In this document: positions 15,155 through 57,618 of the stretch, piece by piece
How positions within the stretch are numbered: position 1 is the first letter of the stretch
How the letters are laid out: each line of letters opens with the position of its first letter
NCBI GenBank assembly: GCA_946807835.1
Contig: OX327690.1
Coordinates: 12,186,501 to 12,250,500, forward strand
DNA from: Ailanthus altissimus
Lineage: Eukaryota; Streptophyta; Magnoliopsida; Sapindales; Simaroubaceae
Reading direction: 5' to 3'
Length of the DNA: 64,000 nucleotides
Made by a program: the position numbers and the translations under genes
The notes under the pieces: model-generated
Told to the model about the DNA's origin: nothing
Seen by the model: the letters and a program-made list of their open reading frames with translations, nothing else
The model's database searches: none

Positions 15155-15159
15155 AAATT

Positions 15160-25342: not shown

Positions 25343-27190
25343 TGTTGTCGGGGATCTAATACATATGGGTGTATGTATGTACTATTGTGCCTATTGCCTA
25401 AATAAGTATCAAATACGAATTTATACGCGGCGGAAGCGTAAAATATACAATAAACATAATAGTTAAATATATTAATCACATTAATATATTTAACTATTAT
25501 GTTTATTGTATTATATTTAATATATTAGTAAGGTTGAGAACTCACCTCAATTTGTAATGTTATATATGTATTTTTTTTCAGAGTCTACATGGAGACCAAC
25601 TCGTAGCAGTTCTAGTCACCAACACAATAGACTTGGTAAGCTAGAACAGCAGCCCTATACGCAGTAATGAGTTTAACTCTTAAACTCCAAAATGGTCGGG
25701 TGTGTTTTCATTTTTTCTCCAAAAGGATAAAAAATGGAGAATTTGAAGCAATCCACCATTGCTTCAATTGGAACCATAGGAAAAAAATGAAATAATTTCA
25801 TTTTTCCCTCTCTTCTTTTCTTCTTCTTCTTCTCTTTTTTCTTTCTTTCCTTCTCCATTTCTTCTCTCTCTCAGTACAAATTGCACCAATTTCCCATAAC
25901 ACACCAATTGCACACACTTCTCACTATTATATATATATATATATCTAATATATAATATAACAATAATATAATATATGATAAAATAATAAATAGTAATATA
26001 AAATTAATAATCGGTGTCAACTATTTAGCACCCAAAATATAATATTATTATATATAATATAGTAATATAACATAATAATATATAATATAATAAAATAATG
26101 AAATATTTTAATTATTTAACAATTAAATAATCAAAGTGTGAAATAACCATTTTGCCCTTCATAAATAGTTACCAAGTATACCCCCTAGTGGGTCCCATAA
26201 AATCCCACTTGGGTAAACTCAATCGAGGGTCTACAATGCTCCACGTATCCTTATACAATTAGTAAATAACAATTATTAACTAATTATTATATTTAATATT
26301 TAAATACAGACACACACGTATTCTCGTGGTAGTGCTGAATATTACTGGATTAAACAATTTAATCCAGCACGCTGCCTCAATGCACAACGAGTACACTCCA
26401 TATCGCGGGACTCCCTAGGTCCATGCCTAATTCGTCAAATAAAATTATTCCATGAGTCCGTGAGCAATGCCATACGCACACGTCACGGATATTACAAATT
26501 AGAGCGTTGAATCATACAAGCTGAGGTTACAACGCATACGTATAGTCCTTCTGTCATGATATCCTAGATGTGTGGGAATATAGATTATCACCATTAAATC
26601 CCCTAGTGCTCGTCCATGTCTTTTCTCCAGACTTGTATCTCACAAAATAATATGTGCAAACTCCTTTGCTATATTGTTCTACCCTGGCGGAACTCTTTCC
26701 CAAGATTGATACTTATGGCCATAAGACTTTTCGAGATACAGTCTCGAAGTATCTAGATATCGAACTCTATATACGAGCTGACGGATCCCATATCTATATA
26801 CACCAGACTCTATAAGCATTGGACTATACCCAACGACACCCAGCGGTCTCAACATGAAAGGTCTGTGACATGCGTGGAACCAAAGCATGGTGGATCACTT
26901 ACAAGCCTACCGTGGCACTCAGGTCAAAGGACCACGTATACTACTCAACTCGAGAGGACCCTCCGTTGACAGCTTATAGAGGATGTCTTTTGGAGGCCCT
27001 CGTGAGTCTGTCCTATATCCAGTCTTAACTGGATACCCATATGTCAATACAAGCTCCAAGCTCACAGTTGGCTCGAAACGACTATCTATACCCTATAGGT
27101 ATGACATATGCTGATCTATGTATAAAGGTATCCACTGACAGACCCGCATCGGCAGAAATAAATCAGGGATAATTATTCGAGAATATACTT
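25343..27190 (-). mobile_element. 5' LTR of copia element 2, truncated at right end
   Basis: The LTR starts TGTTGTCGGGGATC and aligns with 16744 onward. It breaks off at about 27190, after GAGAATATACTTG, where its partner continues for about 340 more bases. Beyond the break lies G1 protease sequence. About 0.9 kb of G1 (the equivalent of 32720-33645 in G2) is missing too, so one deletion removed the LTR tail and part of G1. It contains a 67-bp palindrome that its partner lacks. Confidence 0.85.
25445..25511. repeat. Perfect 32-bp inverted repeat with 3-nt loop
   Basis: Arms 25445-25476 and 25480-25511 are exact reverse complements around CAC. The sister LTR near 16846-16905 has only the left arm (with one change) followed directly by the downstream sequence. 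The right arm is therefore an added inverted copy. Confidence 0.95.
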
Positions 27191-29366: not shown

Positions 29367-30908
29367 TGATGAACACATGAAAATGCATATTTGTTAAGAG
29401 ATTCAGTTACCATTTAATGTCACTAATTTTAGCATTTTCTGTATTTTTAGCTTGAAATAAAGTGTTCTCCTTAAATTATGATTAATGAAGGGTTAGGTAA
29501 AATGGACATAACTCTCAATGTAGAAATTGAAATGAAGAAATTTTTGAACCTGATGCAACATGACTCAATCTTACACAAATTTGAAGAATAGGGTAAAAGC
29601 CAAATCCAATATGTTATGGGCCACAAAGTGAGATACAATAGAATTGGCCTACAACTTCTGCCCAATTTGACCCAACTCACGTATTTGGACCGTATCTCAT
29701 AAAATACGTACTCAATTGGTATAATTCTTAAAGCTGTAAAATACAGACTTAATTATCAATAACTCGTATATTGATGGTAAAGTCCAAATCAGCCATTATC
29801 ATGGACAAATTGCATTGCAAGTGGGTAAAAGGGTTGTTGGCCGAAATCTGATGTATCTTTGGAAGTTTGCTCATATATCATTGGATACTCATCCAATTTG
29901 CGCAAACTCAGTGCCTATGGAAAGAAGAGACAAAATTCTACAACTTTTATGTCAGTCATAGAGGCTACATCAGTCATTTATATTATCAAAAACATACTGC
30001 AAGTGGATGAATGAGTTATTGGCCTAAAATTATTAAAGATTGATGTCATTCATGACATATTGCCATTCATTGCCTATATAAGGAGACTCTTAGGATATTT
30101 TCAACATTGGATAATTCTCTCTTATTTTCTTCTCATTAACATGTATTGTAATTTAGGCTAAAGTTCTTGGCAAGGCTAAGAGATGAACTTTTATGTGTAA
30201 TAAATCTACTTCTATACTTTGATTCGTTGTCAAGAGCTACAAATGTTTGTAAGTTTGGTTTTGATTAAACTCTTATCTATTTTATTTTCTATAATCCAAA
30301 GGTTATAATTCTCATGTCTCATATATGTTCAGTCATGCTTTTCTTATGTGATTCTTATTGAATTATAATTGTTATTGGTTACATTGTTTTATATGTTAAT
30401 CTTTTACTGCAGCATTGTCAAATTGATATATTGTCGATCTTGGATAACATGTAAGGGCAATAAATGTTTGATATTCAAGTTGATCTTTTACTGCAATATT
30501 GTTAAAATAATATATTGTCGATCTTAGATAACTTGTACAAGTGAACATGATGTGTGTTAATGCTTGCAAAGAGTTTAATTACATCAAATACATGTGTTAT
30601 CAAATGTGCTATATTTTACATATCTTTCGATTGATTGTTTGGGATGTAAAACTTTCAATTGCGTTATAAGTATTGAATCAAAGTGTAGAGTAGATTTATA
30701 AAGCATAATTGTGATTCTCAAAGCCTTGTTTAAATCATCATAAGATATTTTCTTCAATTTATAGACAATTCCATCTCATCAACCTATTTTTATCCTTTGC
30801 TACCTCTTTATTATTTTACTTCACCAACCTATTTTACCAAGAGCTTCCTCGTGGGATCGACACCTCAATCTATACTGCGATAGCCGAGTTATATTTTGAT
30901 CGTAAACA
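29367..30908 (+). mobile_element. G2 5' LTR (1542 bp)
   Basis: TGATGAACACATG to CGTAAACA, nearly the same as the 3' LTR (1552 bp). Differences include a 10-bp gap near 29490 and scattered substitutions. A TATATAAGG box lies at 30076-30084. The U5 end reads GCTTCCTCGTGGGATCGAC. Confidence 0.95.
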
Positions 30909-30913
30909 AAATT

Positions 30914-30931
30914 TAGCGCCGTTGCTGGGGA
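30914..30931 (+). other. G2 primer binding site (tRNA-Asp type)
   Basis: TAGCGCCGTTGCTGGGGA lies 5 bp after the LTR and differs at two positions from the tRNA-Asp complementary consensus TGGCGCCGTTGCCGGGGA. Confidence 0.85.
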
Positions 30932-33977: not shown

Positions 33978-35352
33978 ATGATAGACACACTTGTAGCAGA
34001 GGAAGCTTATAAAAATCATGGCTCTGATTCTTTGAAAAACCTTCTCAATTTTGATTTTGAAAAATTGTATTATCCTGATGTAACAACTGATGTGTTTAGT
34101 ATTTTTGACTCACAGGATAAAGGGACTCGATTTTGGCAGCCACTCTTTGAAGAGTTGCCACGAGAGAGGGAGAAACCAAAACCATCAAACCTCGAGACAC
34201 CACAAGTTGAGTTTTCTCCACTGCCCAAAGGTTTGAAACACGCATTCTTGGGACCAAGTGATACCTTTTCTATCATTATTTCTTCTGAACTTAGTGCTGA
34301 ACAAGAGGAAAAATTGATAAAATTGTTAAAAGAACATAAGTCTGCACTAGGTTGGACCATAGCTGATATTAAAGGTATTTCTCCATTGATATACTCCCAT
34401 AAAATTCATTTAGAGGAAGGTGCCCAACGTCGTAGAGACCCACAAAGAAGACTTAACCCAACAATGAAAGAAGTAGTGAAGAAAGAGGTCTTGAAACTAT
34501 TAGATGCGGGTATAATCTACCCAATTTCTGATAGTCAATGGGTAAGTCCAACTCAAGTAGTTCCTAAGAAATCTGGGGTTATTGTTGTTGAAAATGAGAA
34601 TGTGATACCTGTTCCAACTAGGGTAGTAAGTGGTTGGAGAATGTGCATTGATTATAGAAAGTTAAACACAGCCACTAGGAAAGACTATTTTTCATTGCCT
34701 TTTATCGACCAAATTTTAGAACGTGTAGCTGGACATCCTTTTTATTGCTTTCTTGATGGGTATTCAGGGTATTACCAGATTGAGATACCTATAGAAGATC
34801 AAGAAAAAACCACTTTTACATGCCTTTTTGGTACTTATGCTTTTCGTAGAATGCCATTTGGATTATGTAATGCACCAGCTACTTTTCAGCGTTGTATGTT
34901 AAGTATTTTCTCTAATATGGTTGAAAAATGCATGGAAGTCTTTATGGATGATTTGACTATTTTTTATAATTCTTTTAATTTATGCCTACTTAACTTGAAA
35001 TTTGTTTTGAGTAGGTGTGAAAAAAAATGACTTGTGCTAAATCAGGAGAAATGTCATTTCATGGTATCGTCAGGAATCGTTTTGGGGCACATTGTATTTG
35101 AAAGAGTGATAGAGGTTGACAAGGAAAAAATTGAATTAATCTCTAAATTATCTACACCCAAAACGGTAAAAGATGTCCGATCCTTTCTTGGACACGCTGG
35201 CTTTTATAGAAGGTTTATACAAACTTTTTCTGCCATATCCAGACCATTGTGTAACCTTTTGCTAAAAGATGCAGAATTTACATGGACACAAGAGTGTGAG
35301 GAGGCATTCCGAACACTCATTGCCAAAATCACTACCACTCCTATCATGTAAT
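33978..35352 (+). pseudogene. G2 reverse transcriptase
   Basis: A 350-codon open frame (33978-35030) covers the linker and most of RT. RT blocks include LNPTMKEVVKKEVLKLLDAG, WRMCIDYRKLNTATRKDYFS, FLDGYSGYYQIEI, FGTYAFRRMPFGLCNAPATF and the catalytic EVFMDDLTIF at about 34936-34965. A stop at 35028-35030 breaks the frame. The next frame (35034-35351) has GHIVFERVIEVDKEKIELIS and VRSFLGHAGFYRRFIQTFS (thumb and connection). RT copies the genomic RNA into cDNA in the particle. Confidence 0.92.
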
Positions 35353-35760
35353 CACCGGATTAGGACCTCTTATTTGAAATTATGTGTGATGCAAGTATTT
35401 ATACTGTAGGAGCAGTTCTTGGGTAACGTAGGGAGGGAAAACCCTTTATTATTTATTATGCTAGTAGGACTTTGAATAATGCTCAAATGAATTACACTAC
35501 TACTAAAAAAGAACTACTAGCTGTTGTTTTTGCCTTAGATAACTTTCGTTCTTATTTGATTGGTTCACCTATTATTATTTTTACTGACCACGCAGCTCTT
35601 AAGTACCTTCTTTCTAAGAAGGATGCTAAAGCCCGTTTAATTAAGTGGATTCTTCTTTTGCAGGAATTTTATATAACCATCAAAGACAAGAAAGGCGTTG
35701 AAAATGTTATTGTTGATCATCTATCCCGCCTTGAGTTCACTGACTCCACTAATTTGTCAC
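35353..35760 (+). pseudogene. G2 RNase H
   Basis: RNase H starts with EIMCDAS at about 35378. A TAA at 35424-35426 lies where G1 has Gln (SQR). It continues at 35472 with [20 protein letters not shown], then [20 protein letters not shown], and ends near [10 protein letters not shown], the usual C-terminus before integrase in this family. Confidence 0.88.
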
Positions 35761-37112
35761 CCATTCGAGATGATTTTCCTGATGAACATCTTTTTGCTAT
35801 AAGCCAAATACCTTGGTATGCACATATCGTAAATTATTTGGTTTGTGGTGAACTTCCATCTGACTTGAGTGCACAAGATAAGCGTAAGTTCTTGGTTGAG
35901 GTACGTAATTTTTATTGGGATGATCCATATCTTTTCAAATACTGTCCTGACCAAATCATAAGACATTGCATTCCTGAAAGTGAAGTTTCTAGTGTCTTAA
36001 ATTTTTGCCATAGTGCTGCTTGTGGTGGCCATTTTTCTATGAAGAAGACAGCTGTGAAAATTTTACAGTGTAGTCTTTATTGGCCCACTTTGTTCAAAGA
36101 CACTAATAATTTTTGTCGTTCCTGTGAAAGATGTCAAAAGTTAGGTGCTTTATCTCGAAGAAATATGATGCCTCTTAACCCTATTCTTGTTATCGAGATA
36201 TTTAACTGTTGGGGTATCGATATTATGGGTCCTTTTCCCTCATCTTTTGGCTACCTTTACATCCTTTTGGCTGTTGACTATGTATCAAAATGGGTGGAGA
36301 CTGTAGCTTATCCTACTAATGATAATACAACTGTAGTAAAATTCTTAAAAGAAAATGTGTTATCTAGGTACGGTACGCCACGTGTCATCATTAGTGACCA
36401 AGGAACACATTTTTGTAATCATTCTTTTGAAGCTTTGATGCGCAGGTATGGTGTTCTTCACAAAGTTTTCACTGCATACCATCTACAGACAAATGGACAA
36501 GCCGAGCTAGCAAATAGAGAGGTTAAATAGATTTTGGAAAAGATGGTTAACCCGAATCGCAAAGATTGGTCTCTACGCCTTTCTGATGCATTATGGGCAT
36601 ATCGTACTGCATACAAAACCATCTTAGGAATGTCTCTATATTGGCTTGTTTATGGGAAAGCTTGCCATTTACCTGTTGAGCTAGAGTATAAAGCTTATTG
36701 GGCTGTCAAAGCCCTTAACTTTGATTTGAATGTTGCAGGTCTCTAGAAAAAGTTACAATTGTCAGAAATAGAAGAGTTACGAAATGACGCATATGACAAC
36801 TCCAGAATTTACAAAGCTAAAATGAAAGTAGCTCATGATAAACAGATCTCAAGGAAACACTTTGAGCCAAATCAACGGGTCTATCTTTATGATTCTTGAT
36901 TGCATTTACACCCTGAAAAGTTGAGATCTCAATGGACTGGTCCATTTATGGTAAGGCATATTTTTCCTAATGGTGCTGTTGAAATAGAGGACCCCACTGA
37001 TGGATGAACTTTCAAAGTGAATGGACAGCGGCTAAAAAGATATGTGGAAAAGGTAGACAACTCTATGTACCTAGGCGAGATCCCTCTTGTGGATCCTGTC
37101 TATCATGCTTGA
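35761..37112 (+). pseudogene. G2 integrase
   Basis: The zinc-binding module is at about 36005-36140 ([13 protein letters not shown], then CRSCERCQK). Catalytic residues are Asp in [10 protein letters not shown] (about 36211), Asp in IISDQGTHF (about 36393) and Glu in [14 protein letters not shown]. An in-frame TAG at 36528-36530 comes right after this block and is also present in G1. The rest continues at 36534-36746 and onward to a GPF-type module with QWTGPFMVRHIF at about 36930. The frame ends with TGA at 37110-37112. Integrase inserts the cDNA. Other stops near 36744 and 36897 are private to G2. Confidence 0.9.
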
Positions 37113-37236
37113 TCAGTGTGATTTTAGTTCCCAGTCAAGTGGCGGATACGGTACTCCATGACTATTAAAGTCAGTTTCTTAGTTCCCTAAAACCTGTCCC
37201 TCAAACTATGCATTCATCTCTTTTCTTTCTTTCAAA

Positions 37237-37784
37237 ATGGATCACATTCTTGCCAACCTTAAAAAATATTTTCCTTCATTGCCTCAAAATGCTCTACTTA
37301 AGATTTACAAAGCACGGTGTGAAAGATTAAGGCTATTGATGTTAGGTAATATCCTTGTAGATCTTCGTTGGTTAATTGAAGCCAAGGTTCGGTTATCTGG
37401 TGAGTTTATAAATGATTTTATTTCTTATATGCCTGGTCTTGGTAGAAGCTCTTATGCCAAAAGGCGACGAGCAAAAAGGTTACAAGTCTGTCATAAATGT
37501 GCTTGATGGAATTGTAACTGGAGTTGTCGTTCTTTAGGATTTGCATCTAGAAATCGAGAAGACAAAATTCAATTCATTAAAGATGGACTGAGTAAGGAGT
37601 CTTTGGATGATATCCTATTGACTCTTGAGACGCATCCCTGTGGGCTCATGCAATGTGAACTTCTCAATTTATGGAACAAATTCAAAAATGAACATCAACG
37701 GTATAGTCTTAGGAATCTGACTATAAAAGACCCTATTTGCCAATTATAAGAAAATTGGATGGGAAGCTTATCCCCGACCCATAG
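37237..37784 (+). pseudogene. G2 copy of the basic cysteine-rich (viral NABP-like) ORF
   Basis: The ORF starts at ATG 37237 (MDHILANLKKYFPSLPQ) and runs 89 codons to a TGA at 37504-37506 where the G1 copy has an Arg codon. Sequence homologous to the G1 protein continues to 37784, with a one-base loss near 37745. Residues about 68-87 hold a basic block, GRSSYAKRRRAKRLQ, followed by a cysteine cluster beginning VCHKC. This layout resembles the nucleic-acid-binding, silencing-suppressor-type proteins of carlaviruses and relatives. It lies 124 bp after the integrase stop and 315 bp before the LOG-like ORF. Homology to a viral protein is by motif only; it could be an unrelated zinc-binding protein. 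Confidence 0.6.
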
Positions 37785-38038
37785 AGGGCGTTTAAGCCGT
37801 TACTGGACGTAAAACCAGAGGAAGATGTGAGCCACAATCACAACTACTTGTAAATACATGTGTTTTAATTTCAAAGTTTATTTTAAGAATAGTATGGCTA
37901 CTCATGTAGATGTCTTAAATTCAAATCTTTTTGTTCAATAATGCATGTGGGTCATTATGTTTAAATTTTTGTGTTTTATTTTTAACTCTCTTTTGACAAA
38001 CTGTCGGGTTACCATAATCATTGTTATCATTTGGTACT

Positions 38039-38047
38039 CTATAAATA
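38039..38047 (+). promoter_or_regulatory. TATA box upstream of the G2 LOG-like ORF
   Basis: CTATAAATA lies 53 bp before the degraded start codon. The G1 copy has the same box at 44015-44023. Retention in both copies supports an internal promoter, though this is only inferred. Confidence 0.45.
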
Positions 38048-38099
38048 CAATACATCATTGTCTTCATTTTCATATATTGAGATAAAGGTGAGTGTAAAT

Positions 38100-38747
38100 A
38101 CGGAGGAAACCCTAGTTCAACAAATTCGAAATATATGTGTATTATGTGGATCTAGTCCTGGAGAGAGTAAAGTGTTTGTAGAGGCAGCAAACAATCTAGG
38201 AAAAGCATTAGCTATAAGAAAAATTCATTTAATTTATGAAGGGGGTAGCCTTGGGTTAATGGGGTGTGTGTCAACAGCTGCACATTTAGGAGGAAGTCAA
38301 GTTTTAGGTATTATTCTTACAGCTTTAGCCGTGGAAAATCTGACCGGGAAAACAATAGGGGAAGAATTAGGAGTCTCATCCATGCATGAACATATAGCTA
38401 GAATGCTTTGTAATGCAGACGCTTTTATTGCTTTATCAGGTGGTTTTGGTACCTTGGAAGAAATTTTTCAAATTGTCTCCTGGACCCAACTGAATATCCA
38501 TTGAAAACCCATAGGTTTGTTGAATATTAATAACTATTTTGATTGCTTACTTTGTTTTCTTGATCAAGCTGTGGAACAGAATTTTATTTCACATTCGGCA
38601 CGACAGATCTTGGTTTCTGCTACTAAGACGGATGAATTGATTATCAAATTACAGGCAGTTAACTACGAACCTGACCCAGCAATAACTCGGATCTATTGGT
38701 CAGTGGGCCTTAACAAGCGAAAATTGGATCTGACATTTCGTTTGTAA
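38100..38747 (+). pseudogene. G2 copy of the LOG-like cytokinin phosphoribohydrolase
   Basis: This region aligns codon for codon with the intact G1 copy (648 bp in both, no indels). The start ATG is changed to ACG at 38100. A TGA at 38502-38504 replaces an Arg codon after WTQLNIH. Two key motifs are damaged: the nucleotide-binding loop reads YEGGSLGLMG instead of YGGGS, and the catalytic motif reads LSGGFGTLEE instead of LPGGFGTLEE. LOG enzymes cleave cytokinin riboside 5'-monophosphates to active free-base cytokinins in the cytosol. This copy is probably inactive. Confidence 0.85.
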
Positions 38748-40113
38748 ATTTTTCTTTGTTTTATTTATTTATCAGCATCATCATTTTAGTTTATATTTGC
38801 TTAAGTGTCTCTCAGGTTTATTTCTTTCAAATAACTGGCGTTTCAGGTAATGTCTCATATAATTTATCTCTTTCAATTTAAACATTGAAGACAATGTTTC
38901 ATCTGGTTTGGGGGAGGATAGTAGACACAAGTCGTACTTTAAAAAAAGAAAAGTTGTGGTTCGATACTTGATTAAAATGGCAGAGTAAAGAGTTTATTCT
39001 TGAACTCTTGAGACGCATTCTAGGTCAAGTTAAAATGGCAGAGAAAGGAGTTTTAGTTCTAACTTTTGAAACGCATTTTAACTAACTTTTTGTTGTTGTG
39101 TTTTATGTTTCATGTATTGTTGTTTATTGCTTGTAGTCTTGGTAATTCTTGTATAAAAGAATTTTCTTTTCTGCCTAGGTATGATTTCCCAATTGTTTAG
39201 GTTAAGTCACTGTTTCTATTTAGGTTACTAAAAAATGACTTCCAAAATATTTTTGAGCACAATGCTAAGCCTTGTGGTAAGACGGATGATTCAATTTATA
39301 TAGCCAAGGGAATTTCCATGTTTAAGCATATAGTTTTCTAATCTCACATATATTTTGTGAGTAAGCGGGAAAGGTTGAGAAAACAGCTTATGAACCTTCA
39401 TTGATCCTTAAATTGGTTAAGTTTTGTTTAGATTGATATTATTTGAATTAAGGGATAAGTTGGTTGCATTTGTGTATAATATAATTTGGTGAGAAACCTT
39501 TGTAATACTTCCTTGTATTCTTCAAAAAAACAAAAGAAGCAAAATACCAAAAAAATTAAAAAAATTAAAAAACAATTTTTAAAAAAAAAGAGAAGAATCA
39601 ACTCAGTTTAATAAAGTCTTTATCCAATTTTAGAAGACAAATATTTTGTAAAGTAGTTTTCTCACCAAGTTATATTTGTATTATTCTCACAAGCCAATTG
39701 AAATTCTAAAGTTGGCGTATGATAGGAATAATTGATTTTTAAACAAATGATTTTCCTATCTTTGGATCAATGTTAGTTTATATGTCTGTCCTTAAAATTG
39801 ACTTTTTCTTGAGTGCTTAACTGATTTTCAACTCTATAAGAGAAGTCCTAACCTTTTAAACAGTCATACACTTGTAAGGATATGGAGTTGAGGCTTTTAC
39901 TTGGAGAAATTCTCAAGGCTATATCTATTGTGGTTTGTGGTCAGATGGTTATGGCTTAGTTTACATATACACAAATTTTGGAAGTTGTAATTGAAAAAAC
40001 CATGATAGCAACAGTGATCTTGAATTGACATTTTATTTGAAATGCTTAAGTAGTTTTGCATATTCTATTTACGCTTGAATTGCTAGAGACTAGCAATAAG
40101 CTGGTTGGGGGCT
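38748..40113 (+). other. G2 3' non-coding region with polypurine tracts
   Basis: No ORF is supported. An imperfect palindrome ACATTGAAGACAATGT (38882-38897) is followed by the purine-rich GGTTTGGGGGAGGA at about 38906, a block common in Athila/Tat 3' regions. Two related ~65-bp segments with AAAATGGCAGAG and AACGCATT follow at 38970-39080. An A-rich stretch lies at 39520-39590. The element's own polypurine tract, GCTGGTTGGGGGCTG, ends at 40113 against the 3' LTR. Confidence 0.7.
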
Positions 40114-41665
40114 GTGATGAACACATGAAAATGCATATTTGTTAAAAGATTCAGTCACCATTTAATGTCACTAATTTTAGCATTTTCTGTATTTTTAGCT
40201 TGAAATAAAGTGTTCTCCTTAAATTGTGATTAATGAATGTTATTTGGACAGGGTTAGGTAAAATAGATATAACTCTCAATGTAAAAATTGAAATGAAGAA
40301 ATTCTTGAACCTAGTGCAACATGACTCAATCTTACACAAATTTGAAGAATAGGGGAAAAGCCAAATCCAACATGTTATAGGCCAAAAAGTGAGATACTAT
40401 AGAGACGGGCTACAACTTCTGCCCAGCTTGACTTAACTCACGTATTTAGATCGTATCTCACAAAATACGTACTCAATTGGTATAATGCTTGAAGCTGTAA
40501 AATGCAAACTTAATTATCAACAACTCTTGATGATAAAGTCTAAATCAGCCGTTATCATGGACCAAATTGCATTGCAAGTGGGTAAAAGGGTTGTTGGCCG
40601 AAATTTGATGTATCTTTGGAAGTTTGCTCATATATCATTGGATACTCATCCAATTTGTGCAAACTCAGTGCCTATGGAAAGAAGAGACAAAATTCTACAA
40701 CTTTTATGTCAGTCATAGAGGCTACATCAGTCATTTACATTATCAAAAACATGCTGCAAGTGGATGAATGAGTTATTGGCCTAAAATTATTAAAGATTGA
40801 TGTCATTCATGACATATTGCCATTCATTGCCTATATAAGGAGACTCTTAGGACATTTTTAACATTGGATAATTCTCTCTTATTTTTTTCTCATTAACATG
40901 TATTGTAATTTAGGCTAGAGTTCTTGGCAAGGCTAAGAGATGAACTTTTATGTGTAATAAGTCTACTTCTATGCTTTGATTCGTTGTCAAGAGCTACAAA
41001 TATTTGTAAGTTTGGTTTTGATTAAACTCTTATCTATTTTATTTTCTGTAATCCAAAGGTTATAATTCTCATGTCTCATATATGTTCATTCATGCTTTTC
41101 TTATGTGATTTTTATTGAATTATAATTGTTACTGGTTACATTGTTTTATATGTTAATCTTTTACTGCAGCATTGTCAAATTGATATATTGTCGATCTTGG
41201 ATAACATGTAAGGGCAATAAATGTTTGATATTCAAGTTGATCTTTTACTGCAATATTGTCAAAATGATATATTGTCAATCTTAGATAACTTGTATAAATG
41301 AACATGATGTGTGTTAATGCTTGCAAAGAGTTTAATTACATCAAATACATGTGTTATCAAATGTGCTATATTTTACATATCTTCTGATTGATTATTTGGG
41401 ATGTGAAACTTTCAATTGAGTTATAAGTATTGAATCAAAGTGTAGAGTAGATTTATAAAGTATAATTGTGATTCTCAAAGTCTTGCTTAAATCATCATAA
41501 GATATTTTCTTCAATTCATAGACAATTTCATCTCATCAATCTATTTTTATCCTTTGCTGCCTCTTTAATATTTTACTTCACCAATCTATTTTGCCAAGAG
41601 CTTCCTCTTGGGATCGACACCTCAATCTATACTGCGATAGCCGCGTTATATTTTAAACGTAAACA
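40114..41665 (+). mobile_element. G2 3' LTR (1552 bp)
   Basis: It starts TGATGAACACATG after the polypurine tract and ends ACGTAAACA at 41665. It is nearly identical to the 5' LTR, with a TATATAAGG box at 40832-40840. The target duplication CTTGT follows. Confidence 0.95.
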
Positions 41666-41670
41666 CTTGT

Positions 41671-42965
41671 TACGCACATATTGAAAATTATTTAGTTTGT
41701 GGTGAACTTCCATCTAACTGGAGTGCACAAGATAAGCGTATGTTCTTGGTTGAGGTACGTAATTTTTATTGGGATGATTTACATCTTTTCAAATACTGCC
41801 CTATCCAAATTATGAGATGTTGCATTCCTGAAAGTAAAGTCTCTAGTGTCTTAAATTGTTATCATAGTAGTACTTGTGGCGGTCATTTTTCTATGAAGAA
41901 GACAGTTGCAAAAATGTTACAATGTGGTCTTTACTAGCCTACTTTGTTCAAAGAAACTAATAATTTTTATCGTTCTTATTAAAGATGTCAAAAGTTAGGT
42001 ACTTTATCTTGAAGACATATGATGCCTCTTAACCCTATGCTTGTTATTAAGATATTTGATTGTTAGGGTATCGATTTTATAGGTCATTTTCCCTCATCTT
42101 CTGGCTACCTTTACATCCTTCTAGCTGTTGACTATGTATCAAAATGGGTGGAGGCTGTAGCTTGTCGTACTAATGATAATACAACTGTGGTAAAATTCTA
42201 AAAAAGAAAATGTGTTATCTAGGTACGGTATGCCACGTGTCATCATTAGTGACCAAGGAACACATTTCTGTAATAGTTCTTTTAACATTTTGATGCGCAG
42301 GTATGATATTCTTCACAATGTTTCCACTGCATACCATCCACAGATAAATGGACAAGTCGAGCTAGCAAATACAGAGGTTAAATAGATTTTGGAAATGACG
42401 ATTAACCCAAATTGTAAAGATTGGTCTCTACACCTTTCTGATGCAATGGGCATATTGCACTGCATACAAAATCATCTTAGGAATGTCTCTATATCGGCTT
42501 GTTTATAGGAAAGCTTTTCATTTACCTGTTGAGCTAGAGCATAAAGCTTATTGGGCTGTCAAAGCCCTTAACTTTGATTTGAGTGCTGCAGGTCTTCAGA
42601 GAAAGTTACAATTGTTAGAAATAGAAGAGCTATGAAATGATGTATATGACAACTCCAGAATTTAAAAAGCTAAAATGAAAGTAGTTCATGACAAACAGAT
42701 CTCAAGGAAACACTTTAAGCCAAATCAACAGGACTATCTTTATAATTCTCAATTACATTTACACCCTGAAAAGTTGAGATCTCAATAGACTAGTCCATTT
42801 ATAGTAAGGCACGTTTTTCTTAATGGTGCTGTAAAAATTGAGGACCCCACTAATGGGCGAACTTTTAAAGTGAATGGACAGTGGCTGAAAAGTTATGTGA
42901 AAAATGTAGATCACTCTATGTACCTAGATGAGATCCCTCTTGTGGATCATGTCTATCATACTTGA
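41671..42965 (+). pseudogene. G1 integrase, continued after the G2 insertion
   Basis: G1 resumes at TACGCACATATTG and runs through integrase. The zinc-binding module contains [17 protein letters not shown]. Asp positions survive in YRCIDF-like (about 42068) and [10 protein letters not shown] (about 42245). The Glu block reads QINGQVELANTEVK followed by TAG at 42383-42385, the same stop as in G2. The continuation has [14 protein letters not shown] at about 42460 and a GPF-type module. The frame ends with TGA at 42963-42965. Private stops are at about 41935 and 41979, so it is inactive. Confidence 0.88.
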
Positions 42966-42969
42966 TCAG

Positions 42970-43094
42970 GTTCAATCTATCTGTACCATATTTTATATTT
43001 TGTCTATATTTTATATTTTGACTTTTTATTTTGCTTTTATTTTCTTTTATATTTTTATTTACTTTATTTTCTTCTTTTTCTTTTTTTTCTTCAG
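42970..43094 (+). other. 125-bp GT-AG intron-like segment, absent from G2
   Basis: G1 reads CTTGATCAG then GTTCAATCTATC ... TTTTTTTCTTCAG then TGTGATTTTA. G2 at 37109-37131 reads CTTGATCAG directly followed by TGTGATTTTA. The extra 125 bp begin with GT and end with AG. They are AT-rich and close with a long pyrimidine tract, as plant introns do. It starts 5 bp after the integrase stop and ends 120 bp before the cysteine-rich ORF. Confidence 0.8.
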
Positions 43095-43214
43095 TGTGAT
43101 TTTATTTTCCAGTCAAGTGGCAGATACAGTACTCTGTGAGTATTAAAGTCTGTTTCTCAGTTCCCTAAAAATTGTCCCTCAAACTGTGCATTCATCTAGT
43201 TTCTTTCTTTCAAA

Positions 43215-43762
43215 ATGGATCGCATTCTTGTCAACCTTAAAAAATACTTTCCTTCATTGCCTCAAATGCTCTACTTAAGATTTACAAAGCACGGTGTGAA
43301 AGACTAAGGCTATTGATATTGAGTAATATCCCTGTGGATATTTGTTGGTTAATCAAAGCCAATGTTCGATTATCTGGTGAGTCTATAAATAATTTTGTTT
43401 CTTTTATGTCTAGTCTTAGAATAAGCTCTTATGCCAAAAGGCGACGAGTAAAGAGATTACAAGTCTGTCATAAATGTGCTCGATTGAATTGTAACCAGAG
43501 TTGTCGTTCTTTAGGATTTGCATCTAGAAATCAAGAAGACAAAATTCAATTCATTAAGGATAGACTGAGTAAGGAACCTTTGGATGATATCCTATTGACT
43601 CTTGAGACGCATCCCTATGGGCTGGTTCAACGTGAACTTCTCAATTTATGGAATAAATTCAAAAATGAACATCAACGGTATAGACTTGGGAATCTAACTC
43701 TAAAAGACTCTGTTTGCCAATTTATAGGAAAATTGGATGGGAAGCGTATCCCCGACCAATAA
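43215..43762 (+). pseudogene. G1 copy of the basic cysteine-rich (viral NABP-like) ORF, one frameshift
   Basis: The ORF starts at ATG 43215 (MDRILVNLKKYFPSLPQ). It loses one base in an A run near 43266, and is then open from about 43270 to a TAA at 43760-43762. Without the slip it would be about 182 aa. In order, it has a helical N-terminus, a basic block SSYAKRRRVKRLQ, a Cys4 cluster VCHKCARLNCNQSC (C-X2-C-X4-C-X3-C), then an acidic/hydrophobic C-terminus with KDRLSKEPLDDILLTLETHP. The basic block placed directly before the cysteines resembles carlavirus-type nucleic-acid-binding proteins, some of which suppress RNA silencing. The C-terminal half has no match I recognise. Confidence 0.65.
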
Positions 43763-44014
43763 AGAGCGTTTAAGCCTTTACTAAACGTAAAACCAGAGAA
43801 AGATGTGAGCCACAATCACAACTACCTGTAAATACATATGTTTTAATTTCAAAATTTTTTTATGAATAATAAGGCTACTCATATAAATGTCTTAAATTCA
43901 AATCTTTTGGTTAAATAATGCATATGGGTCCTTATGTTTAAATTTTTTGTTTTATTTTTAAATCTCTTCTGACAAATTGTCGGGTTACCAAAATCGTTGT
44001 TATCATTTGGTACT

Positions 44015-44023
44015 CTATAAATA
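44015..44023 (+). promoter_or_regulatory. TATA box upstream of the G1 LOG-like ORF
   Basis: CTATAAATA lies 43 bp before the ATG at 44067 and is shared with G2. The spacing would put transcription start just before the ORF. It is a candidate for LTR-independent expression. Confidence 0.45.
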
Positions 44024-44066
44024 CAGCACCTCATTTTCTTCATTTTCATATATTGAGATAAAGGAT

Positions 44067-44714
44067 ATGGAGGAAACCTTAGTTCAACAATTTCGAAATA
44101 TATATGTATTTTGTGGATCTTGTCCTGGGAAAAATAAAGTATTTGTAGAAGCAGCAAACAATCTAGGAAAAGCATTGGCTGCAAGAAAATTTTATTTGAT
44201 TTATGGAGGGGGTAGCTTTGGGTTAATAGGGTGTGTGTCAATAGCTGCACATTTAGGAGGAAGTCAAGTTTTAGGAATTATTCCTACAGCTTTAGCTGTG
44301 GAAAACCTTACTGGAAAAATAATAGGGGAAGAATTACAAGTCTCATTTATGCATGAACGTATAGCTAGAATGCTTTACAATGCAGACACTTTTATTGCTT
44401 TACCAGGTGGTTTTGGTACCTTGGAAGAAAATTTTCAAATTTCCTCTTGGACCCAACTTAATATCCATCGAAAACTCATAGGTTTGTTAAATGTTAATAA
44501 CTATTTTGATTACTTACTCTGTTTGCTTGATCAAGCTGAGGAACAAAATTTTATTTCACATTCGGCGCGACAGATCCTCATTTCTACTACTAATGCGGGT
44601 GAATTGATTGACAAATTACAGGCAGTTACTTACAAACCTGACCCAGCAATAACTCGGATTAATTGGTCAATGGGCCTTAACAAGCAAAAAATGGATCTGA
44701 CACTTCGTTTCTAA
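44067..44714 (+). CDS. LOG-like cytokinin riboside 5'-monophosphate phosphoribohydrolase carried by G1
   Basis: Intact 215-aa ORF. ATG 44067 (MEETLVQQF) is chosen because it aligns with family N-termini; the frame stays open upstream to 43977. Motifs in order: YVFCGSCPG near residue 14, LIYGGGSFGLIG near 45, LGIIPTAL near 70, MHERIARM near 95 (the Arg of the substrate site) and LPGGFGTLEE near 112 (PGGxGTxxE, with catalytic Glu). It ends about 30 residues beyond the core with PAITRINWSMGL. Length and motif order are those of plant LOG enzymes, which release active cytokinin bases from their nucleotides. It is intronless, unlike host LOG genes, and lies after the cysteine-rich ORF inside a retrotransposon. 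The sequence has drifted well away from typical plant LOGs (for example IARM where KAEM is usual). Whether it is expressed is unknown. Confidence 0.88.
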   Translation: MEETLVQQFRNIYVFCGSCPGKNKVFVEAANNLGKALAARKFYLIYGGGSFGLIGCVSIAAHLGGSQVLGIIPTALAVENLTGKIIGEELQVSFMHERIARMLYNADTFIALPGGFGTLEENFQISSWTQLNIHRKLIGLLNVNNYFDYLLCLLDQAEEQNFISHSARQILISTTNAGELIDKLQAVTYKPDPAITRINWSMGLNKQKMDLTLRF

Positions 44715-45435
44715 ATTGTTTTTTATTTTATTTATTTATCAGCATCATCATTTTAGTTTATATTTACTTAAGTGTCTCTCAGGTTTATTTCTTTCGAATA
44801 ACTGGCGTTTCAGGTAATGTCTCATATACTTTATCTCTTTCTATTTAAACATTGACGATAATTTTTCATTTGATTTGAGGGGATGATAGTAGACATAAGT
44901 TAAATTTTGTATTTAAAAAAAAAAGATAATGGGGTCCGATATTTGATTAAAATGGCAGAATAAAGAGTTCATTCTTGAACTCTTGAGACGCATTCTAGGT
45001 CAAATTAGAATGGCAGAGTAAAGAGTTTTATTTCTAACTTTTGAAAAGCATTTTAACTAACTTGTTATTTTTCATGCATTGTTATTTATTGCTTGTAATC
45101 TTGGTAATTCTTGTATAAAAAAAATTTATTTTTCTACCTATGTATGATTTCAATATTATTTGGATTAAGTCACTGTTTCTATTTAGGTTATTAAAGAATG
45201 ACTTCCGAAACATTTTTTAGCATAATGCTAAGCCTTGTAGTAAGATGGATGATTTAATTTATATAGCCAAGAGAATTCCCATGCTTAAGTATAAATTTTT
45301 CTAATCTCACATATCTTTTGTGAGTACTTGGAAAAGTTGAGAAAGTAGCTTATAAACCTTCATTGATCATTTGAATTTGTTAAATGTTTTTTAGATTGAT
45401 ATTATTTAAATTAAGGAATAAGTTGGTTCCATTTG
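44715..45435 (+). other. G1 3' non-coding region, truncated
   Basis: It aligns with G2 38748-39475 and includes the two AAAATGGCAGA segments. It stops near CCATTTGTGTATAA, where G2 continues. About 640 bp, the polypurine tract and the 3' LTR of G1 are missing. Confidence 0.8.
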
Positions 45436-48035
45436 TGTATAAAACGGGCAAAGTTTCCCTTATTTTTCTGAAAATCCAATACAAAACCTGCAAAGAATTA
45501 CACTTATATTTCAATACAACTTCTCAATATCTCCAAATAAGACATCCGATCCTTTTCAAAACCAAATCCATCTCTACTTAACAATTCCATTTTTTATCAA
45601 AAATTGGCATATTAGTAAAACATGAAATGACCATCACAATATCAAAATCTTTTCTTGTTTGTTCAAAACATATGTACAATACACAAGCCTATACTACTAT
45701 GCAGAAAGCAAAAAGAGTGCTACATTTACAAAAAATAATCTTCAGATTTGGCCCATTGATCAGCGGTAGGAGAATCAGCAGCTTGCGTACCGAAACCTGC
45801 ACCTGAAAAGGGGGTTTAGAAAACATAAAACACAAAACAGTGAGCTAAAGGAGCTCAGTGAGTACATTTAAGATTTCAAATAAAATAAATTTCTGCATAG
45901 ATATTAAATTCTAAGGACATGCATAAATCATGTTTCTAAAATTTGTATAAAGCAGTAAAATAGTTTCTAACATCATAAGTCGATGAAATCTTGCCGAGCG
46001 GGTTTTATTTACATCTTCGAAAAACTATATCCAAGATTTGTAAAACACAATAACTAGCATGTACATATAAATGCATAATATACGATTGGTAGATCAAAAA
46101 TTATTAAAGACCTCGCTCGGCCATTTTCTTTCGAAACTGTACCAACGATAACCCTAAGGCTCTATACTTGTGCAACGACTCAACTAGCACCGCACACGTG
46201 AGTAAGTCATGGGGCGTTTCAGCTAGCAACACCCACTATGCCATCTCAAGACATCTCACTGGCTATACAGTGGAATCCTACATCGCATACATATAGTGAG
46301 ACAATACCCCGTACACATAGAGAGACTCACATGACTCGATAACCCGACATCTTAGAGTTAGTGACATACCCCATAAAACCTGCCCATGTGTACTGGATAT
46401 ACTGGTCGGGTCTTAAATCATCACCACCATTATAATCTGAGGGTACTAATGGCCTTTTTAAAGCTAATACAGTAATTTTAAATCTGTTTCTTAAACCAAA
46501 CATGTAAAAGAATATCTATGTATATATATCAAAATCATAAATCATGTTTATGCATTAAAAGCACATAAAACATACAGTTTCATTTTACGGAAATATAATA
46601 AACGAAAGATAAACAAAATGACAAATTTTCACTCACAACCGTTCCGAGCTCAATTTCGCTCCGAATTTCTACTCCCATTATCGGTCTCGATTTTCTTCAC
46701 CTACATGCCATAAATGACATTTAGAACCAAATCAAATACTAGAATCTCATTTAACTACTAAACGCCCTAATTGGCATACAAAGCCCGGATGAATATTGAT
46801 TTCCAATTTTTATTTATGGAGTCATTTAATCTAATATAACTCACTATCCGACACCCTAAAAATTTCTTAACACCCTATAACGTTCGTTGGACATAATTGC
46901 CCTTCACCTTACCAAAATGGACAATTATGTCCCCTTTTTTTCATTTTTTTTATTTTTCATCATCCATATACATTCAATTTACACAAGACACCATTTATAC
47001 ACAACAATTCAACCAAAACACAACTCAACCCAAACTTCCCTAAAGTGGCAAAATTTACATCCACCATCCAACATATTTTTTTTCTCAATTTCTTATTCTA
47101 ATAGCATCAAAATCTAGCTAATTTCATTCTAATGCCCTAATTACAACTAATTGAAATCTTTACATCAAAGTCACCCAAAAGCCTAATTCTTTACCTTGCC
47201 AATTTCTTCAATTTGATGACTCCTTCAAGCTCCACACTAGAATTCAAGCAAATCTAAACCAAGAATACACACAAGAACATCAATTAAAGCATTCTTGAAA
47301 GTTCACATATCATCCTTACAAAATAATGCTTTTCTTACCTCTTTTTCTTGACTTTTCACTAATGGAGGCTTCAATTGATCTTTAGGAACTTGTATTTGAC
47401 CTTATTTTAGCCTGATTAAGCATGAAAAATTATGAAAAAAATCTTTAAATTTCACTGTAGCAGCACCCCTCTTCACTTGGACAAATTTTGCTTCTGTTTT
47501 GCTCTAAGTGTTATGCTTTTAATCTCATGAAATTTCTACACACTTCTACTTTATATATAATGCTCCCTCAATTAACCAAGTTGTCCCTCAACTTACTCTA
47601 AATTTCTAATTTGCCATTGGTTGGAAACTAAGTATATAATTGCTTCCTTTGTAACTATCTGGTTGGAATAGTCAAAGGAACTAACTAGAATTCCCAATTT
47701 GGAAATCCATGAACTTGCCTCTAATTAGTCCATTCTCTAATATATGGATTGTGTTTCTCAACAAAGGCTTGTTCTATACATAACCCTTAAATGAAAATTC
47801 ATGTAGAACATTAAAATTTTCTTTTCCAAGCCAATAGAGAAAATTTCCAAAAATATTTTAGGGTCGTTTGACTCTCCGACAGAGTGTGAAATTACCAAAT
47901 TAGGTCTAATATCTCTCACGCTCACTATAAAAAAAATATTTCTAATAGGGTTAGAATCGGGTAACCCTACGGTGTCTTTATTACTCTATACCAAAATTTA
48001 GGCACTAATACTACTAATAGAGATTGGATATTACA
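45436..48035 (-). mobile_element. Probable Tekay/Del-like gypsy solo LTR (about 2.6 kb)
   Basis: On the minus strand the right end begins TGTAATATCCAATCTC, and GAGCTCCTTTAGCTCACTG with GGTGCAGG occurs near 45800-45860. These features are reminiscent of long Tekay/Del chromovirus LTRs. Flanks ATTTG (45431-45435) and ATTTC (48036-48040) could be a mutated 5-bp target duplication. There is no primer site or coding sequence, and short frames in it (such as 46887-47117) are not conserved. The exact left end is uncertain, because G1-like bases seem to extend to about 45442. Confidence 0.5.
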
Positions 48036-53440: not shown

Positions 53441-54700
53441 ACTGCATAAATTACGGCATTTGCTTTTAATTTCTTTGGTGACTGACTTAGGCAGGGTGAA
53501 AATAGAACACCAGTAGACATGCATACTCATTATGACAGATTTTATTAATTGCAACCGCCCCACATAACTCAAATATTTCATAGTCCAGCTTGAGATTCTA
53601 ACGATGATCCTATTAATAAGCTCCTAACAGTGGTCTTTCTTCAGTCCACCTAAGATTAGGGGAATACCTAACTATTTGATAGGCAGTACACCTTGTTGGA
53701 ACTAAGTAATCTGCAGAATTGTCTCCTTGGTAGGCTGAGGAACATTCCCAAAGAAAATGAAGCTTTTACTAGCGTTAAGGTGTAGACTTAAAACCATTAA
53801 AAATTCATCAAGCACTTGCTTAAAGTAGCCCATTGACCTGTCATCGCCATGAGAGAACAAGAATAAGTCATCTGCAAACATCAAGTGATTTAGCTTCAGT
53901 CTCTTACACTCCCTATGATATATAAACTGGTTCTGAAGAATACAGCTTAGGCTCCTACTAAGGTATTCCATGGCCAACACAAAAAGCAGAGGGAACATAG
54001 GATCCCCCTGCCTCAATCCTTTTTTCCCCGGGAAAAAACCCTCTAATCTTCCATTTACCACAACTGAGTACGTGCTTGTTCTGACACACTTTATGATAAT
54101 ATTGATAAAATGATAAGGGAAGTTAAGCCCTATCAATACCTCTTCTAAGAAATCCCAAGAGACCGAATCATAAACCTTGCGAAGATCTATCTTAAGTGCA
54201 CATCTTGGGCTACCACTATTATAATCATAACCCTTCACAAGTTCATGTGCCAGTAAAACATTATCGGTTATCTTCCTATTAGGAATAAAAGCTTATTGAC
54301 TAGGGTTGACTAAATAGCTCACTAAATTCCTTAGCTTGCAGGTAATTATTTTGGTGGTACATTTGTATAGGACCGTACAACATGCAATTGGTCTATAGTC
54401 CCTCAAGCTATGAGGATTAATAATCTTAGGCACGAGAGTAATAGCAATGGCATTTATAGGGTTGTAAAACTGATCTGAAGAGAAGAAATGTTGCACAGCT
54501 TCAGTAACCTCCGTTCCAAGAATGTGCCAACATTTTTGAAAAAAGTAACTGTTATAACCATCAAATCCTGGGGCTTTATCACCATTGATGCTGAAAATAG
54601 CATTTTTTAGTTCTTAGGCTGTTACAGGAGCATTCAACATGTCTCTATCATCTACCTTTAGTTTAGGGCCAACATCTATGATTCTCTTTTGTATGGATGC
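53441..54700 (-). pseudogene. LINE ORF2: reverse transcriptase
   Basis: Frame 53702-54238 encodes LINE-type RT: ALKIDLRKVYDSVSWDFLEE, GRLEGFFPGKKGLRQGDPMF, PLLFVLAMEYLSR and LNHLMFADDLFLFSHGD (the FADD catalytic motif). Frame 54293-54496 gives the upstream TLVPKIINPHSLRDYRPIAC and YKCTTKIITCKLRN. Leftward to about 53440 further RT/thumb pieces can be followed through stops (PLLGAY, KLDYEIFELCGAVAINKI, CHNEYACLLVFYFHPA). The 3' end, with no RNase H or tail visible, is missing. Non-LTR RT primes cDNA synthesis at the target DNA. Confidence 0.92.
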
Positions 54701-55935
54701 CTTATAGAAAGTGTAGGTTCCCAAAAATTTTTGTAGTAACCGACTATGGCGTCTTTCACAACCTTGGGATCTTCAGAATTTTCCCCATTTTGGTTCTCAC
54801 TCGAAATGATTCTATTCTGAGCTCTTCTCTGCTTAACTAACTTATGAAAGTAGCTGGTATTTGAATCCTCCATTTGAATCCATCTAATTCTTAATTTTTG
54901 TCTGATAATGCTTTCTTTAGCATAAATAAGTTTCCTTAAATGCTGATAAATGCCCATTTTCTCATCTTGAAGAATTTGGTTGAATGGATCATGGATCATA
55001 CTACTTTGTAAGGAGGCCAACATCATTTTGTAATCTTCGATCTTTTGCTGGACATCAGAGAAAAAGACTTTGTTGAGCTCTTTTAGCTTGGGTTTTGATA
55101 ACTTGAGTTTGAACCAGACCCGGACCATTAGAGAGCCATAACAGTCATGCTGCCAAACTCAATCGACTGTGGAAAGAAACTCAAAGTGGGCACACTAGGC
55201 ATTGAAGAACTTGAAAGAAATAATACCACTATAGGATGCTCTAGAGATGGAGATCACAAGAGGAGAGTGATATGAAATGCCTGGTAAAACTTCATACTCA
55301 GAAAACTCCAATGCATCCAACCAGTTTCCATTAATGAATGCCCAATCAATTTTTCTCCAAATTTTTTGTCATCCTATTTAATTATTGCACCAAGTGTAGC
55401 AATAACTATGGTTCTTTAACTCGAATAATTCTAGTCTCGACATCCAACTTTTAAACTATTCCACCATGTTATCATTTACCCATTGACCACAAATTCTATC
55501 ATTGTTGTTGAGGACATTGTTGAAGTCCCCTTAGAATAACCAAGGTGTAGTGTTGGGAGTTAAGTCATCACTAAGATCCTTCTACAGGCTCTCTCTCTCT
55601 CAATAGTGGTAGAGGCACCATAAACAAGCATTCAGTAAAACACAATGCCATCAATAAGAAATCTACTATGTATGAATTGCTGGTGCTTTTGTAAGATCGT
55701 GACATTGCATCTAGCAGGATTAAAGATAATCCAAATTCTTCCCATATCTAGACACTATAAATTATTTTCTAGCTTCCAATCCCGTAATGCTAATTTTTTC
55801 TAAATGGTATCTAGATTAGATAGTTTAACTTTTTTTTCTAACAATCCCAAAATAGATAATCAACAAGATTTAATCAGAGACCTTACCTCTGATTGTTTAC
55901 AAGGGTCATGGAGACCCTGAATATTTCAGATTGCG
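54701..55935 (-). pseudogene. LINE ORF2: linker and endonuclease remnant
   Basis: Frame 54676-55128 encodes VWFKLKLSKPKLKELNKVFF and LRIRWIQMEDSNTSYFHKLV, the conserved linker (WLxxGDxNTxFFH in other plant LINEs) between endonuclease and RT. Sequence to about 55935 is where an apurinic endonuclease should be. It is heavily broken: GISYHSPLV-like and WIHWNF-like pieces are faintly visible but no catalytic residue is certain. Confidence 0.7.
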
Positions 55936-55936
55936 A

Positions 55937-57618
55937 TCATTGTCCCCTATTTGGGGATTTAAAGCTCCTTGTGGCACGTCGACCCTTATCTATAATTCCC
56001 ACATCATGTGTCAGAGTAATAGTCTTCCTTAAGTTGAATCTGTCTACTACCTGAATTACCTCTGATCCCCCACTACCTAACGTGTGTTTCATTGCCTTAT
56101 TTGTAGGGACATTCTCCTCATTGCCCTCTGGAGTTTGTGTATCCATTTCTGCTTTGCCTGTATTTAGATTTTTTTGTTCCTGCTTTTCAGGGTGAATAAT
56201 AGGTGCTTCAATTCCGCCTTGATTGTTCTGATCTATCTCTTTTACTTTCCACACTTATTTTATCCCTGTCTTACAATCTTTCCCATCATAACCAACCCGT
56301 TTACACTTGGGGCAGACAGTAGGATTCCACTCATAAGTCACCTCCTACATAACCATATTACCCTCTTCATCCTCTAAGGTAATCATGGAAGAAAAATCAC
56401 CCTCCACATCCATTTCCACCAGAACTCTCGCAAATGCCATCCTTGTTCTATTCACAGTATATTGATCATAGAATTTAGGGGATCCCAAAGAGCTAGCAAT
56501 ACGACTCAAAAGTGGGGGGGCTCCAGAATTCCCACGATAGTCCTGAGAATTGCACCCAAATAGATAGAGTTTTGATACTAGCTACATCCATAACCATTAT
56601 GGGTTTCCAAGCTTTGAGAATCAAATAGCATTTATCAAAGGTCAATGGTCCATCATCAAGTGCTTTTTGTTGCCCAAATGTATTCTCAAAGTTAAACAGA
56701 AACAACCCATCTTTAATGGAGTAAACTGAAACTAAGCCAAATTACTTCCAACGATGCATTACAAAGGCTTGGAGTGGTTGGAATTTAGGAAATAATCCAT
56801 ACACACAACCAATTAACGTATGCTGCCACTTTTTCTCTTCTTTTCTAAGTTCATTACAATTGAATTTAACAATTTTCTTACCATTCAAAAGGGTCAGGGG
56901 GATAAATTGTAGTTCACTTCCATTACTTTGAATTCGGTTGTTAGCAAATAAGGACGCCCACAGCCGATTGGAATGCACGACCTTGTTACCGAAACAATCT
57001 ACCACTATAGCAGCCACCGCCACTGGCGGCGCACTGGTGCCCGGCTCGCCACCAGCAGAAGCCAGAGCCAAGTTCTTGTAGTCGTCAGCCATCGCAACGG
57101 GAGGTCTATTGCCAAAATGATCGGGCGTTGTTTCATCCATAGCCATTGGAGGAGCACCGTCGGCCTGCCCAGATCCTGCAGAAGCTGGAGCCAAGGTGGC
57201 TAAGTTCGTAGCAGCACAATAGCCTTTAGTGGGCGTCAGGGAGGAGCTTGTGAAAGCTACACATTCAGGGGGAGCTAGTAGCCTTCATTCCATCGCCTAC
57301 AGAGATAATAGGAAGGACAGTCGGCATCGTGGCAAAATCTACATGAGCTTCTCCAGACTAGGAAGATGCATTTGCAGCAGTTTCAGCGCCCAGAGATACA
57401 ACAGGGAGCACGGTCGACAGCGCGGCCAAGTTTGTGTGAGCTTCTCCAAACCAAGAAGATGCATTTGCAGCAGTCAGAGGATCAACCACGTCGAACGCCA
57501 GAGACTGACTTGATAAGGATGGAACGGAAGCAGAGCTAGCAACCTCTATCACGCCAAGTTGAGACACAGCAAGAGAAGAGCGCACCAGGCGACGGCGAGT
57601 GGCCGAAGGCGGCGGCAT
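55937..57618 (-). pseudogene. LINE ORF1: DUF4283-type RNA-binding protein with zinc knuckle
   Basis: The frame from ATG 57618 (MPPPSATRRRLVRSSLAVSQ) leads into Ala/Ser-rich sequence in which ANASSWFGEAHTNLAAL-like words recur. Frame 56742-57194 holds the start of the DUF4283 domain: NGKKIVKFNCNELRKEEKKW, then QHTLIGCVYGLFPKFQPLQA. Frame 56493-56705 continues with FLFNFENTFGQQKALDDGPL and the TFDKCYLILKAWKP block. Near 56281-56318 a knuckle, CPKCKRVGYDGKDC, has Tyr where His is usual. ORF1 binds the element RNA. Frameshifts separate the segments. G+C is higher here than in its surroundings. Confidence 0.85.

Follow-up and report, generated by a model that had tools for sequence, protein, structure and literature searches.

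The two related retrotransposons in the analysed window (the whole stretch of DNA, 64 kb in length) raise the question of what an Athila-like element does with a pair of genes lying between its integrase and its 3' LTR, and whether this pair is a lasting property of an element family. The original prediction had read the pair as a viral-NABP-like protein followed by a cytokinin-activating LOG-like enzyme, carried by the retrotransposon where an env-like ORF is normally found. From the analyses below we consider it rather probable that a eudicot Athila-like Ty3 lineage carries a conserved two-gene accessory module at the env position, the roles of which we infer.

Self-comparison of the window identified two related Ty3-type insertions of one family, G1 and G2, with a 3' cassette common to both, G2 being nested within the pol region of the older G1. 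All features of G1 and G2 given here lie on the + strand. The G1 pol region is split into the segments 27183-29384 and 41666-42969, each 89% identical to the G2 pol region; the latter segment is the integrase part, which adjoins the cassette upstream and is 89% identical to G2 35812-37116. G2 is delimited by a 5' LTR at 29367..30907, starting with TGATGAACACATG, and a 3' LTR at 40115..41665, ending with CGTAAACA, with 72 differences over 1536 aligned columns. Its flanks, CTTGA and CTTGT, differ at one position and are suggestive of a 5-bp target-site duplication; a G-rich tract precedes the 3' LTR. Each G2 LTR also contains two copies of a 59-bp repeat (30395-30537 and 41152-41294). No G1 LTR was found in the self-comparison of the window, and the likeness of G1 to G2 stops at 45442.

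A tRNA-Asp-type primer binding site is a mark of the Athila lineage. That of G2 (30914..30931) agrees at 16 of 18 positions with what we take to be the tRNA-Asp primer binding site sequence. Within the G2 pol pieces (33978..36530), Pfam detected RVT_1, RT_RNaseH, Integrase_H2C2 and rve, corresponding to the reverse transcriptase at 33978-35030 and to RNase H and integrase at 35472-36530. The Pfam output for these pieces contained no further RNase H domain besides this one, and the Athila order RT-RNase H-integrase, lacking the extra RNase H of Tat, is therefore read from an absent Pfam match. The ATHILA ORF-1 domain PF03078, present in 16% of Athila elements according to PMC6317226, was not detected in any of the four G2 ORFs examined for it. 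Several other repeats were observed in the window. A third, partial related element spans 13987-18487, with an LTR-like segment at 13987-14964 (85% identical to the G2 LTR) and further parts at 15325-18487; the self-comparison detected no cassette in it. A fragment near the window edge (63136-63859) is 78% identical to 26333-27055, a direct repeat of about 540 bp (20629-21171 and 21350-21890, 87% identical) spans 20629-21890, and ORFs on the - strand at 53702-57194 resemble a LINE reverse transcriptase and its neighbours, as named by eye.

The cassettes, G2 37113-39479 and G1 43091-45442, are 88% identical and in both the integrase is followed by the NABP-like and then the LOG-like gene (37237-38747 in G2). 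In G1 the NABP-like gene occupies 43215..43762, with a start codon at 43215, an early break in the frame and an open part at 43316-43762, and the LOG-like gene occupies 44067..44714 as an open frame of 215 aa (PF03641, 3e-32). The G2 NABP-like gene (37237..37755), delineated by similarity to G1 and by translation, is interrupted by an in-frame stop and, towards its 3' end, by a frameshift; the G2 LOG-like gene (38100..38747) has lost its start codon and contains one in-frame stop. The predicted arrangement of a basic Cys4 protein and a LOG-like protein downstream of integrase is thus borne out in both copies by the Pfam matches and the cassette identity, and its location on a retrotransposon at the place of an env-like ORF by the anatomy of G1 and G2. 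The claim that both copies contain the ORFs stands for homology and order and fails for integrity: both NABP frames are broken, and only the G1 LOG frame, one of four, is open from ATG. The cassette resembles the env-like 3' ORFs of Athila-type elements (as described in PMC7264820) in its position between pol and the 3' LTR and in its sense, but consists of two genes with named homologues, and no env family was among the Pfam matches.

As the name given to it in the original prediction implied, the first protein passed the Pfam cut-offs of both viral families: the G1 ORF 43316-43762 scored 24.3 bits against PF05515 Viral_NABP (cut-off 23) and 21.8 bits against PF01623 Carla_C4 (cut-off 20.9). 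Protein searches recovered 117 relatives (E up to 0.01), including P0001, which is 81% identical to the open part of the G1 gene. A profile search returned 928 matches (E up to 0.1), of which the best 120 were listed and those beyond may include viral proteins. Most relatives are listed with neither host name nor locus; among the matches listed, the named hosts were Rhamnella, Xanthoceras, Acer, Populus, Citrus and Orobanche; five named hosts are eudicots belonging to Rosales, Sapindales (two), Malpighiales and Lamiales, or at least four orders. When Pfam was run at 1e-3 over 46 aligned relatives, Carla_C4 was detected in 38 and Viral_NABP in 37. The intact form, of about 182 aa, comprises predicted helices, a basic patch, a C-x2-C-x4-C-x3-C motif and a conserved C-terminal part. 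In an alignment of 110 relatives K110 was invariant (110/110), D109 and H133 were each kept in 109, and all four cysteines behind the basic patch in 87. Flexivirus NABP and cysteine-rich proteins (CRPs; PF05515, PF01623) likewise have a four-Cys motif immediately preceded by a basic patch, whereas the element protein is retrotransposon-borne, reaches about 182 aa and has its own cysteine spacing and conserved C-terminal part. According to PMC12172455, viral CRPs act as silencing suppressors, and one of them, the carlavirus protein p12 of Chrysanthemum virus B, is a transcription factor inducing hyperplasia.

Structure models pointed the same way. A first model, built from 46 rows, was poor (pLDDT 61.3); its matches in the viral fold library numbered 20 (15 named plant-virus proteins, 4 unnamed and 1 from a phage), with a best E-value of 0.08. 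The better model, built from 110 rows (pLDDT 74.2, pTM 0.42), gave 32 Foldseek matches in this library, 24 of them named proteins of plant viruses, which also fill the first 11 places; 21 of these 24 are named NABP, RNA-binding protein or silencing suppressor, the remaining eight matches being four unnamed proteins and four from phages or a giant virus. For both models the E-values were 0.08 or worse and the TM-scores low, none being significant singly, and we take the predicted folds as support for the Pfam result and no proof by themselves. Neither sequence nor fold gave a usable match in the PDB; no relatives were found in two scans of IMG/VR viral contigs or in the phage collection.

The second protein belongs to the LOG family. 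The G1 ORF 43980-44714 reached 112 bits against PF03641 (cut-off 27), the G2 piece 38031-38504 reached 68.1 bits (1.1e-18), and G1 44067-44714 scored 138 bits against TIGR00730 (cut-off 96.35); the protein carries the PGGxGTxxE motif and the G1 ORF also matches AtLOG3. Relatives were numerous, with 664 matches at E up to 1e-10 (the best 120 being listed), and P0191 is 83% identical to the G1 protein. A tree was built from 44 hand-picked rows, namely 40 of 116 relatives (P0302 among them), G1 and three references. In this tree 40 rows, G1 included, formed one group (99/98) beside Xanthoceras P0302 and apart from AtLOG3 and AtLOG8, a topology that fits one capture: the element LOG was apparently taken once from a plant LOG gene. 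The element-type group is defined by tree place and not by the locus of each row; likewise, P0302 is read as a probable host gene from its residues and tree place, not from its locus. P0221 of Populus trichocarpa, named LOGL10, falls in the element-type group, again by tree place and not by locus, which bears on its annotation.

The element protein shares with the plant enzymes AtLOG3 (2a33) and AtLOG8 (1ydh) the sequence family, the PGGxGTxxE motif and the catalytic Arg and Glu, but differs from them in having Lys100 and Glu125 replaced and in being encoded, in the window, by one uninterrupted frame inside a mobile element. According to PMC4979012, Arg99 and Glu122 of CgLOG are the proposed catalytic residues, the adenine is held by Met96, Lys100 and Glu121, and the prenyl site (Met96, His97, Lys100, Glu125, Trp129) is common to CgLOG, AtLOG3 and CpLOG. 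Pocket residues were counted in 116 of the best 120 of the 664 relatives, those of 190-235 aa. The catalytic Arg and the PGGxGTxxE motif are mostly kept: Arg99 in 109 (and lost in 7), Glu122 and Glu121 in 114 each and Thr119 in 115, all four occurring together in 105. On the prenyl side, Trp129 is kept in 114 and Met96 in 104, His97 in 29. Other residues stand in place of Lys100 and Glu125 in the G1 protein and in 115 of the 116 relatives, P0302 being the sole keeper. Among the four rows outside the length range, P0192 and P0193 (both Xanthoceras) keep the two residues and P0195 and P0244 keep neither, which brings the relatives lacking both to 117 of the 120 listed; P0302, P0192 and P0193 keep them, as do the three reference LOGs. 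The substitutions are mostly L, I or M at position 100 and H or Q at position 125, and the two changes occur together. None of four proteins tested, among them P0302, reached the 300-bit cut-off of the NCBIfam cytokinin equivalog, which was therefore discarded as a discriminator. These residues suggest that the element LOG kept its catalytic residues and had the N6/prenyl side of its pocket rebuilt; its substrate may have changed, or its activity may have been lost. The predicted cytokinin-activating function is not supported, given the replacement of Lys100 and Glu125, the more so as PMC4979012 reports activity to be nearly abolished in CgLOG active-site alanine mutants, S19A excepted.

The two genes are also found together elsewhere. 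Four pairs of NABP and LOG rows have the same source and identical contig sizes (8723, 2128, 4511 and 66318 bases); the expectation from a jitter control was 0.57 exact matches, and a count of 4 was reached in 13 of its 5000 runs. This test took 97 of the 190 listed NABP rows and 58 of the 120 listed LOG rows, with contigs of at least 1200 bases; it left out chromosomes and large scaffolds, and one source was written for multi-source rows. For contigs above 4000 bases (24 NABP and 19 LOG rows), there were 3 matches against 0.017 expected, and none of 20000 controls reached 3. Equal sizes also occur among the omitted shorter contigs (905, 950 and 1018 bases); contigs of this size could not accommodate both genes, and the agreement appears coincidental. 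The four contigs, known from the two gene rows alone, appear to carry both genes. Moreover, two predicted proteins, P0078 (Citrus) and P0089 (Rhamnella), contain NABP and LOG parts, and in two others, P0073 and P0096 (both Rhamnella), NABP sequence is fused to an integrase tail; these fusions were read by eye, and Pfam detected LOG in P0089 and nothing in P0078, P0073 and P0096. The linked contigs and fused proteins indicate that order and neighbourhood recur outside the plant of the window, and together with the wide range of relatives they argue for a conserved pair and not two accidents. Chance ORFs were ruled out by the homology of both proteins (Pfam matches, relatives elsewhere). A restriction of the ORFs to these two copies, which the original prediction had named as grounds for rejecting it, is excluded by the NABP (117, or 928 by profile) and LOG (664) matches as well as by the linked contigs and fused proteins.

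We also compared G1 and G2 for selection. The dN/dS values were 0.61 for NABP (bootstrap 0.33-1.34), 0.55 for LOG (0.32-0.91), 0.52 for RT (0.32-0.91) and 0.69 for IN (0.41-1.31). The anticipated values below 1 were thus obtained for both cassette genes, with an interval that includes 1 for NABP. The cassette behaves like pol in this comparison, a weak test because both copies have decayed. Conservation across genera is the stronger evidence, although it partly reflects survivorship because protein databases list only open frames.

Candidate expression signals were noted around both genes. In G1, a 125-bp GT...AG segment (42970..43094, 66% T, ending TTTTTTTTCTTCAG) that is absent from G2 lies downstream of the pol stop and upstream of the NABP start. 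It may be an intron or a splice acceptor region, perhaps an intron removed before G2 was copied, through reverse transcription of spliced RNA; alternatively, a plain deletion across the 4-nt TCAG repeat at its ends may account for the difference. Two copies of the TATA-like CTCTATAAATA were found on the + strand, the strand searched across the window, each of them just upstream of LOG (44013..44023 in G1, about 45 nt before the LOG start, and 38037..38047 in G2). In G2, 9 nt at 38089-38097 that are missing in G1 give a good-looking 5' splice site, AAAG/GTGAGT, just before the LOG start.

Part of this combination had been seen before. LOG (YgdH/PF03641) domains were reportedly described in Citrus and Populus LTR elements by Steinbauerova in 2011. 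In a screen of 121 genomes, the YgdH/LOG domain was found in LTR elements of two Citrus species and, with the filter off, also of Populus trichocarpa (PMC9289625, which cites Steinbauerova 2011 as in line with this result). These Citrus and Populus elements resemble ours in carrying a LOG-like ORF in plant Ty3/gypsy elements, but the published text, as far as accessible, mentions neither an NABP partner nor an altered pocket (PMC9289625). A large survey of extra ORFs required at least 250 codons (PMC6317226), more than either gene has, and this minimum may explain why it passed the pair over. A limited search of open-licence main texts found no earlier report of an NABP gene or of the pair in LTR elements. 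The supposed novelty of the combination therefore has to be narrowed: LOG in LTR elements was already known, and what is apparently new is the NABP member, its pairing with LOG and the altered LOG pocket.

We propose that the element probably kept both genes to manage the host cell. The first would be a basic Cys4 protein homologous to the nucleic-acid-binding and cysteine-rich proteins of plant flexiviruses, perhaps made by splicing onto the T-rich acceptor; it would enter the nucleus, bind nucleic acid, and there weaken silencing or change transcription to the element's benefit. The second, possibly expressed from its own TATA, would be a LOG-family protein derived from a plant LOG gene, with catalytic residues kept and a rebuilt pocket. 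It might act as a hydrolase on an adenylate-type nucleotide, which could be an unusual cytokinin precursor, and so shift the growth or nucleotide state of the host in favour of transposition. Silencing suppression or growth control would thus be the putative outcome of the pair.

Other accounts of the LOG-like protein differ in how they treat the pocket. An ordinary cytokinin-activating enzyme, the pair then promoting host cell division with the NABP-like protein as a growth-inducing transcription factor like p12 of Chrysanthemum virus B, would agree with the mostly retained catalytic Arg and PGGxGTxxE and with the hyperplasia-inducing carlavirus CRP reported in PMC12172455; we hold it to be quite unlikely in view of the replacement of Lys100 and Glu125 in 117 of the 120 relatives listed, set against their presence in P0302, P0192, P0193 and the three reference LOGs. 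The loss of Lys100, an adenine-site residue of CgLOG according to PMC4979012, would suit an enzymatically dead protein acting as a binding or structural partner, but a dead enzyme need not keep Arg99 and Glu122, which remain in 109 and 114 of the 116 relatives, and we find this account unlikely.

Two further accounts concern the origin of the cassette. LTR elements are known to transduce genes (PMC7264820), and of the four cassette ORFs in the window three are disrupted, as would be expected if the genes were captured host and viral fragments without function; that they are such neutral passengers is nevertheless very improbable, as length and many sites are kept across plant genera and linkage of the two genes recurs in other sequences. 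As for the direction of exchange, the NABP-like gene could be cellular or retrotransposon-born and have been taken from such elements by plant flexiviruses, in which case the homology would be no mark of viral capture. The plant proteins reach about 182 aa and the viral Pfam models match their middle part only, which favours this direction; we regard it as doubtful.

The accessory module of an Athila-like lineage remains our preferred reading, and a broader version of it can be offered tentatively, as possible though short of probable: eudicot Athila-like elements would long have kept a host-control kit, made of a zinc-finger protein that resembles silencing suppressors and is common to these elements and RNA viruses, together with a LOG whose base pocket was rebuilt for a different nucleotide, the counter-defence family having since passed between RNA viruses and LTR retrotransposons. 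If true, a plant LTR retrotransposon would keep a gene of a family used by RNA viruses against silencing, beside a relative of a hormone enzyme, and the old question on the role of Athila-like 3' ORFs would have a testable answer.
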